Shown here: piece after piece, positions 11,674 to 13,338 of the stretch
Layout: each line of letters opens with the position of its first letter
How positions within the stretch are numbered: the first letter of the stretch is position 1
NCBI GenBank assembly: GCA_016458225.1
Contig: JAEMGR010000003.1
Span: 62,001 to 126,000 of the forward strand
DNA: 64,000 nt
Source: Myxococcaceae bacterium JPH2
Lineage (GTDB): Bacteria > Myxococcota > Myxococcia > Myxococcales > Myxococcaceae
Direction: 5' to 3'
Made by a program: the position numbers and the translations under genes
Notes under the pieces: model-generated
Seen by the model: the letters and a program-made list of their open reading frames with translations, nothing else
Told to the model about the DNA's origin: nothing
Databases searched by the model: none

Positions 11674-12798
11674 CTAGCCGAACAGCTCCTTCACCTTGGC
11701 GAAGAAGCTCTTGGACTGCGGGTGGCTCTCTTCGCCCGCCAGCTCCGCGAAGCGCTCCAGCAGCTCGCGCTGCTTCGAGGACAGCTCCGTGGGCGTCTCC
11801 ACCACCACGCGCACGTGCTGGTCGCCCCGCTGCTGGCTGTGCAGATGCGGGATGCCCTTGCCGCGCAGGCGGAACACCTTGCCGGACTGCGTGCCCGCGG
11901 GGATGGTCATCTTCACCTTCCCGTCGAGCGTGGGCACGTCGATCTTCGCGCCGAGCGCCGCATGCGTGAACGAGATGGGCACCTCGCAGAAGACCTCGTA
12001 CTCCTCGCGCTGGAAGAGCGGGTGCTCGCGGACGATGACCGTCACGTACAGGTCGCCGGGAGGCCCGCCTCGGTCTCCAGGCTCGCCCATGCCCGCCAGG
12101 CGCACGCGCGTGCCGTTGTCCACGCCGCCCGGGATGGCCACCTCGATGACCTCGTCCGAGGGAATCTTGCCCGAGCCACGGCAGCGCGCGCACGGGTCCT
12201 GGATGGTGGTGCCCGCGCCGCCGCAGTCACCGCACGGACGCGACACGGCGAAGAAACCCTGCGTGTAGCGCAGCTCGCCGCTGCCGCCGCACGAGGCGCA
12301 CGTCCGAGCCCCCGCGCCGCTCTTGCTGCCCGAGCCCGAGCACGTGTCGCACTTCTTGGGCCGGGGGATGGTGACCTTGGGCTTGCAGCCGAAGGCCGCC
12401 TCCTCGAAGGAGATCTCCAGGTTGTAGCGCAGGTCCGCGCCCCGGCTCGTCTGCCGCCGGCCGCCAGCGCCGCGCGCGCCCCCGAAGATGTCTCCGAAGA
12501 TTTCCCCGAAGATGTCGTTGATGTTGACGCCCTGGAAGCCGCCGCCCGCGCCCTCGAACGGGTTGCCGGCGTGGCCGAAGCGGTCGTACTTCGCGCGCCG
12601 CTCCGCGTCGCTCAGGACCTCGTAGGCCTCGGAGGCTTCCTTGAACTTGTCCTCGGCGTCCTTGTTCCCCGGGTTGCGATCCGGGTGGTACTGCAGCGCG
12701 ACCTTGCGGAACGCGCTCTTGAGTTCCTGCGCCGACACGGTCTTCTGGACGCCCAGGACCTCGTAGTAGTCGCGCTTCTGCCCCGCGGCCGCTGCCAT
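11674..12798 (-). CDS. dnaJ: Chaperone protein DnaJ
   Basis: Hsp40 co-chaperone that delivers substrates to DnaK and stimulates its ATPase, in the cytoplasm. The J domain (about 9-72) has DYYEVLGV, the HPD motif in YHPDRNPG and YDRFGHAG. A Gly/Phe region follows (ending FGGARGAGG). The zinc region has four CxxCxGxG repeats: CDTCSGSG, CASCGGSG, CGDCGGAG and CARCRGSG. Then come the two C-terminal substrate-binding domains (IPGGVDNGTRVRL onward). Length 374 is normal for a type I DnaJ. No dnaK or grpE is adjacent. An AGGGG ribosome site 9 bases before the ATG lies inside a long inverted repeat (see separate entry). Confidence 0.97.
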   Translation of the reverse strand: MAAAAGQKRDYYEVLGVQKTVSAQELKSAFRKVALQYHPDRNPGNKDAEDKFKEASEAYEVLSDAERRAKYDRFGHAGNPFEGAGGGFQGVNINDIFGEIFGDIFGGARGAGGRRQTSRGADLRYNLEISFEEAAFGCKPKVTIPRPKKCDTCSGSGSKSGAGARTCASCGGSGELRYTQGFFAVSRPCGDCGGAGTTIQDPCARCRGSGKIPSDEVIEVAIPGGVDNGTRVRLAGMGEPGDRGGPPGDLYVTVIVREHPLFQREEYEVFCEVPISFTHAALGAKIDVPTLDGKVKMTIPAGTQSGKVFRLRGKGIPHLHSQQRGDQHVRVVVETPTELSSKQRELLERFAELAGEESHPQSKSFFAKVKELFG

Positions 12799-12807
12799 TC
12801 CGTCAAA

Positions 12808-12889
12808 CCCCTGGAAATTGCTGGTGTTTTCCTACTGCGTACAAATCCGAATCACTATAACGCAGCGAAACGCACCAGCAATCCAGGGG
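12808..12889 (-). repeat. Long interrupted inverted repeat over the dnaJ leader, including its ribosome site
   Basis: On the plus strand CCCCTGG (12808-12814) pairs with CCAGGGG (12883-12889), TTGCTGGTG (12818-12826) with CACCAGCAA (12873-12881), and CTGCGT (12835-12840) with ACGCAG (12860-12865), leaving a loop of 19 bases. In a minus-strand transcript the dnaJ ribosome site AGGGG would be base-paired. It starts 8 bp past the stop of the upstream gene, so it could be a terminator, an SD-sequestering leader, or a DNA operator. Confidence 0.8.
12854..12881 (-). promoter_or_regulatory. dnaJ: Candidate sigma-70-like promoter for dnaJ
   Basis: On the minus strand TTGCTG (12881-12876) and TATAGT (12859-12854) are separated by 16 bases, in the only AT-rich stretch ahead of dnaJ. 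The -10 matches five of six consensus bases, the -35 three. The promoter would lie inside the inverted repeat, so transcripts from it would lack the 5' arm. Confidence 0.4.
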
Positions 12890-12897
12890 TGTTGGCC

Positions 12898-13338
12898 CTA
12901 GACGGTCCAGACGCGATTGACCGTGAGCTCCATGCGGGCCAGCCGACGCTTGAGCGCCGGGTCGACGGGGCCATGGGCGGCCCATTTGGGGACCACGAAG
13001 TGCAGCTCGGCGTTGTAGAGCTTCGCGGCACTGGCCAGCAGGCTCCAGCGGTTCTCCGCCAACGGGTCGTCCACCAGCTCCGGTGTGACGATCTCCAGGA
13101 TGATGGGCGTATGGGCGGAGTCGGATTGGCGACAGGTGAAATCCGGCCGATGGTCCTCGATGGTCCCGGACAGGATGGGCGGAGGCATGAAGCCCGGCAG
13201 ACGGGCCTTGATGTCCGTGTAGCCAATGGTCCGGAAGTACTCGGCCATCAGCCACAGCAGGCGACGACGGTCCTCCTCCTCCACCACCGGTTCGCAGCCC
13301 GGATTGAACAGGGCCTCTTTCTCGTTGTTGGTCTCCAT
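12898..13338 (-). CDS. Conserved hypothetical protein, 146 aa
   Basis: Not recognised. The ATG at 13338 opens METNNEKEALFNPG. The body is a mixed alpha/beta soluble protein with a helix-rich N-terminus (EEEDRRRLLWLMAEYFRTIG), a strand-rich centre (TIEDHRPDFTCRQSDSAHTP then IILEIVTPE) and a C-terminal strand-helix (AELHFVVPKWAAHG, LKRRLARMELTVNRVWTV). The HRPDFTC...ILEIVT pattern resembles the core of small PD-(D/E)xK-type folds (D then ExV), but a Lys is not in the usual place, so this is only a hint. The frame is open far upstream to 15291, but that part is antisense to the ABC gene. Confidence 0.7.
   Translation of the reverse strand: METNNEKEALFNPGCEPVVEEEDRRRLLWLMAEYFRTIGYTDIKARLPGFMPPPILSGTIEDHRPDFTCRQSDSAHTPIILEIVTPELVDDPLAENRWSLLASAAKLYNAELHFVVPKWAAHGPVDPALKRRLARMELTVNRVWTV

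Follow-up and report, generated by a model that had tools for sequence, protein, structure and literature searches.

An inverted repeat enclosing a promoter-like element before dnaJ in Myxococcaceae: a probable translation lock against read-through RNA

Introduction

What does a long inverted repeat do when it covers both the ribosome site of a chaperone gene and the promoter-like sequence in front of that gene? The question is raised by the dnaJ locus in the DNA analyzed here (the window), a stretch of 64,000 nucleotides from Myxococcaceae bacterium JPH2. The first-pass annotation, made from the letters of the window, read the repeat as an RNA thermometer or, alternatively, as a palindromic operator over the promoter. 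Here we weigh these proposals, and others, against folding predictions and comparisons across relatives.

Results

The window belongs to a 9.0-Mb Myxococcaceae genome whose closest named relative, among those found, is Citreicoccus inhibens (dnaJ protein 99% identical), followed by Corallococcus and Pyxidicoccus. The dnaJ product matches NCBIfam TIGR02349 with a score above the cut-off, and 99 nt separate the dnaJ ATG from the stop codon of the gene upstream. Searches of Pfam and NCBIfam with this upstream gene returned zero family matches; this family-less gene is conserved beside dnaJ across the Myxococcaceae. The genes and the parts of the repeat are as follows.

11674..12798, minus strand: dnaJ, 374 aa, with a J domain, a CXXCXGXG zinc domain and a C-terminal domain (Pfam PF00226, PF00684, PF01556)
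12796-12798, minus strand: dnaJ start codon ATG, from the sequence
12898..13338, minus strand: upstream gene, 146 codons, co-directional with dnaJ, supposed origin of read-through RNA
12807..12815, minus strand: outer 3' arm TCCAGGGGT, in the dnaJ leader, a perfect 9-bp inverted repeat with 12882-12890
12808..12812, minus strand: AGGGG, the Shine-Dalgarno sequence of dnaJ, within the outer 3' arm and 9 bases ahead of the ATG
12817..12826, minus strand: middle 3' arm CACCAGCAAT, in the dnaJ leader, a perfect 10-bp inverted repeat with 12873-12882, with which it coevolves
12835..12840, minus strand: inner 3' arm ACGCAG, paired with 12860-12865 in the predicted fold
12841..12859, minus strand: loop of 19 bases, containing the -10 element and the predicted transcription start
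12860..12865, minus strand: inner 5' arm CTGCGT, overlapping the promoter spacer
12873..12882, minus strand: middle 5' arm ATTGCTGGTG, including the -35-like TTGCTG (12881-12876)
12882..12890, minus strand: outer 5' arm ACCCCTGGA, not part of the predicted own-promoter mRNA

Three nested arm pairs around a 19-base loop had been reported at this site, namely CCCCTGG/CCAGGGG (12808-12814/12883-12889), TTGCTGGTG/CACCAGCAA (12818-12826/12873-12881) and CTGCGT/ACGCAG (12835-12840/12860-12865). All three stand, and two prove longer than described: the outer pair, given as 7 bp, is a perfect 9 bp (12807-12815/12882-12890), and the middle pair, given as 9 bp, extends by one base to a perfect 10 bp. 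The reported position of AGGGG inside the outer arm, at its distance from the ATG, also holds in the sequence. The folding energy of the repeat has an MFE z of -6.1 relative to dinucleotide shuffles. Raw folding energy was dropped as an argument for rarity, because GC-rich windows fold equally strongly: 314 of 12,784 windows of this GC-rich stretch match the raw MFE of the repeat. Architecture was used as the criterion, defined as two stacked perfect arms, together at least 18 bp, with a bulge of at most 3; the dnaJ repeat is the single occurrence in the 464 kb of the same contig that were scanned, and a shuffled copy of these 464 kb contains 0. The inverted repeat before dnaJ is real and beyond chance.

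The first-pass annotation had also placed a promoter at 12854-12881, overlapping the repeat, and a promoter-like pair is indeed found there.

12881-12854, minus strand: -35-like TTGCTG and -10-like TATAGT, spacing 16, from the sequence
12854..12859, minus strand: -10-like TATAGT, inside CTGCGTTATAGTG; GCGTTATAGTG is invariant in 56 distinct core upstream regions
12847, minus strand: predicted +1 of the dnaJ promoter, placed 7 nt beyond TATAGT, giving a leader of about 49 nt

A strict sigma-70 scan did not flag TTGCTG-16-TATAGT. Across same-family genomes, ATTGC-N14-GCGTTATAGTG is present in 63/63 core loci (56 distinct sequences) at a fixed position 82-85 nt ahead of the dnaJ ATG, and a recognizable copy of the pair occurs in 20 of 27 more distant loci. 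The spacing is identical in 82 of the 83 loci with the motif, with TTG at a fixed distance. By form and position, the pair suggests a sigma-70-type promoter. Because its -10 element lies at the loop and the predicted start at about 12847 falls within the loop, the 5' arm lies outside the predicted mRNA of dnaJ itself; if the pair is such a promoter, own-promoter dnaJ mRNA would carry the 3' arm only. Many hairpin-less relatives have a -10-like site about 10-20 nt ahead of the ATG, a position consistent with a promoter whose leader is very short. The main text of a Myxococcus xanthus start-site paper does not contain dnaJ. The motif is absent from groES and grpE of this genome, and with two mismatches permitted it has one further genome match, compared with two for a reversed control pattern; the idea of a wider regulon sharing the motif was dropped, since the genome matches do not exceed this control.

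The explanation that we favor, with a probability of roughly 0.62, is a start-site-dependent translation lock at dnaJ that insulates the gene against read-through. RNA running on from the upstream gene would contain both arms and fold into a hairpin of about 30 bp, which would bury AGGGG and leave dnaJ untranslated from that RNA. RNA initiated at dnaJ's own promoter would start inside the loop, lack the 5' arm and expose AGGGG. Because read-through RNA would be closed in this way and the gene's own RNA would escape, dnaJ output would be coupled to its own promoter, although no terminator parts dnaJ from the upstream gene. Support comes from the hairpin, the coevolution of its arms, the conserved promoter-like pair, the co-directional neighbor and the predicted difference in exposure. 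The gene arrangement provides an upstream unit that could read through: the same upstream gene is co-directional with dnaJ in 62 of 63 hairpin loci, with its stop codon 98-178 nt ahead of the ATG. Most distant relatives with a different neighbor have short leaders and lack the hairpin. At one locus, L161 (G069:C2:4462795-4463995), an antisense transposase-like frame replaces the usual upstream gene and looks like a recent insertion; the hairpin there is intact.

Column-based consensus folding of the 56 sequences failed: the register in which the arms pair differs from genus to genus, and the promoter holds the 5' side constant. Half-swap and tree-null tests were used in its place. Since each half of the repeat is constrained by itself, pairing was tested by exchanging the 5' half (promoter-like pair) and the 3' half (ribosome site) between genera. 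The advantage of native pairing over the value predicted by row and column means is 5.2 kcal/mol (nine genera; z = -4.2, p < 5e-5), and the half-swap with 22 clade representatives gives z = -5.6. In the tree null, the parsimony changes of each column were placed randomly on the flanking-gene tree in 300 simulations; this null gives 0.0 +/- 0.8, and the observed value was reached in 0/300 simulations. The mean native duplex energy of the 56 sequences is -36.8, compared with -24.6 +/- 2.9 for the tree null. The inner arms alone, with the ribosome site left out, coevolve with p = 6e-5, and a reversed-sequence control of this inner-arm test shows no signal (z = 0.6). The sequence of the inner arms differs between genera and their complementarity is kept. 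Judged from these comparisons, the two arms coevolve. An AAA run in the leader (12827-12830, minus strand; columns 66-68 of the core upstream-region alignment) is invariant even where UUU is missing as its 5' partner, and is perhaps a separate leader signal.

Burial of the ribosome site was compared across relatives. The native upstream sequences of hairpin lineages close this site beyond their dinucleotide shuffles (mean z 2.4; 31/56 above 2), whereas other relatives show no excess closing (mean z 0.26; 0/20 above 2). Opening energies of read-through and own RNA compared without this shuffle control were set aside as unspecific, because short-leader relatives also show a difference. A separate GC-rich hairpin of 11-13 bp, without a U tract, lies between the upstream stop and the dnaJ -35 element in several loci (L006, L010, L158, L159, L164-L168) and is possibly a second kind of insulator. 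The lineages with this GC hairpin are the Archangium/Cystobacter-like groups g8 and g12 (genus names for the numbered groups were inferred from named relatives) and parts of Myxococcus. Their ribosome site is less buried, with a mean z of 1.08 vs 3.57 in lineages without the GC hairpin; this would fit a lock and a GC hairpin that are two exchangeable insulation devices, a pattern drawn from few independent events. Six early-branching family members (L011, L012, L013, L018, L169, L171) have the same upstream gene and no clear lock. In L013, the -10 region (CCCTG..AGTGG) could instead pair with the ribosome-site region (CCACT..CAGGG), perhaps a lock of independent origin.

In g8, g12 and some Myxococcus, the inner arms still coevolve and AGGGG itself is unburied. 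Thus, pairing of AGGGG is not the sole selected effect. A stem ending directly beside AGGGG may still hinder ribosomes in g8 and g12, or the hairpin may have a further role. Because coevolution persists in genera with a free AGGGG, we tentatively consider that the promoter-spanning hairpin might have a selected role beyond AGGGG burial, for example as a DNA or nascent-RNA fold that regulates the dnaJ promoter, with the lock added in some lineages, although we think this improbable.

The same retention of inner arms where AGGGG is unburied would also fit a repeat that worked in DNA, either as the palindromic operator of a regulator, as the first-pass annotation had proposed, or as a supercoiling-driven cruciform that switches the promoter. 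The promoter is wholly enclosed by the repeat, and a sense-strand test by G-U pairs (100 against 88) gives RNA no preference over DNA. However, an operator should hold its arm sequence across relatives, and the inner arms instead vary in sequence and shift register while still pairing, which makes an operator unlikely. Conservation is seen in the outer arm, which also serves as -35 flank and Shine-Dalgarno sequence. The loop of 19 bases, together with the bulges and internal loops, makes cruciform extrusion unfavorable. Taken as a whole, we judge a function in DNA to be unlikely.

RNase III or another nuclease might instead cut the read-through duplex, so that the operon transcript is processed and dnaJ perhaps released. 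In favor of this, Corallococcus has a long, near-perfect stem, and the stem is conserved even where AGGGG is unpaired, but this proposal leaves unexplained both the conserved promoter-like pair at the loop and the link to ribosome-site burial, and we consider it quite unlikely.

For the window's own sequence, the predicted mean probability that AGGGG is unpaired is 0.00-0.001 in read-through RNA at 20-50 °C, supporting the earlier view that the repeat would bury this site. For RNA begun at the predicted own start, the corresponding value is 0.63-0.73, nearly constant over 20-50 °C, and the predicted structure of this leader is weak. The thermometer, in which heat shock melts the hairpin and frees the ribosome site, has in its favor that many bacteria have dnaJ among their heat-shock genes and that the fold covers the ribosome site. 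A thermometer should be closed when cool and open at heat-shock temperature; the long hairpin is instead predicted to stay closed throughout 20-50 °C (-59 to -36 kcal/mol), and the own-promoter leader to be mostly open at all of these temperatures. Folding at different temperatures had been suggested as a check, and the predictions show almost no change in either RNA, which disfavors the thermometer. In addition, a start inside the loop had been named beforehand as evidence against it, and that is where the promoter-like pair puts the predicted start. Rfam has no family at gathering score within the window, hence no known thermometer family. A thermometer is thus highly improbable. The same holds for an intrinsic terminator of the upstream gene, for although a strong hairpin shortly follows the stop codon, it has no U tract (GGGGUUUGA comes after the hairpin), the dnaJ promoter-like pair lies inside it, and an intrinsic-terminator scan found none.

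Discussion

The start-site-dependent lock, a reading absent from the first-pass annotation, fits these data better than the thermometer or operator proposed there. One feature of such locks, a stable hairpin that buries the Shine-Dalgarno sequence in upstream-initiated RNA, is predicted here. In phage T4, RNA initiated at upstream promoters forms a stable hairpin that hides the ribosome site of gene e, soc and I-TevI; the late promoter of each gene is located within or at the 5' arm, and the gene's own transcript, without that arm, is translated (PMC3014915, PMC2988022). Hairpins of this late-promoter type also occur at segB and Aeh1 mobE (PMC3014915, PMC2988022). The dnaJ hairpin resembles the e/I-TevI type in that it would hide the ribosome site in upstream-initiated RNA; the putative own promoter of dnaJ has its -10 element at the loop. 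The T4 genes, however, are phage late genes under a time switch, whereas dnaJ is a chaperone gene of a bacterial cell, with a repeat that covaries across genera, and no time switch is known for it. In Bacillus subtilis, a hairpin of 20+ bp was proposed to block translation of sigG from spoIIGA-sigE read-through RNA, a hairpin that the PsigG transcript is unable to form (PMC5942855). Here, too, there are differences, as sigG encodes a sporulation sigma factor and a second small hairpin acts in its own transcript, unlike the own leader of dnaJ, for which only weak structure is predicted.

Other chaperone systems are less similar. Like the ROSE and fourU heat-shock thermometers, the dnaJ element folds over the ribosome site of a heat-shock gene, but its hairpin is much too stable, is missing from the predicted own-promoter transcript and has no Rfam match. 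It shares with CIRCE/HrcA an inverted repeat at a chaperone promoter; the CIRCE consensus (TTAGCACTC-N9-GAGTGCTAA), as had been noted before, is absent from the dnaJ element, and exact CIRCE copies lie upstream of groES in this genome.

The principle of sequestration is already known, and the dnaJ case looks like a new example from a cellular gene, backed by comparative data; a search of open-licence papers returned no description of such a lock at dnaJ. The lock reading yields sharp predictions that can be checked on public start-site data. Such locks are known so far from phage T4 and one sporulation gene. If the reading is true at a core chaperone gene, it would suggest that insulation by a promoter inside a hairpin is a general answer for tightly packed, co-directional genes without terminators.
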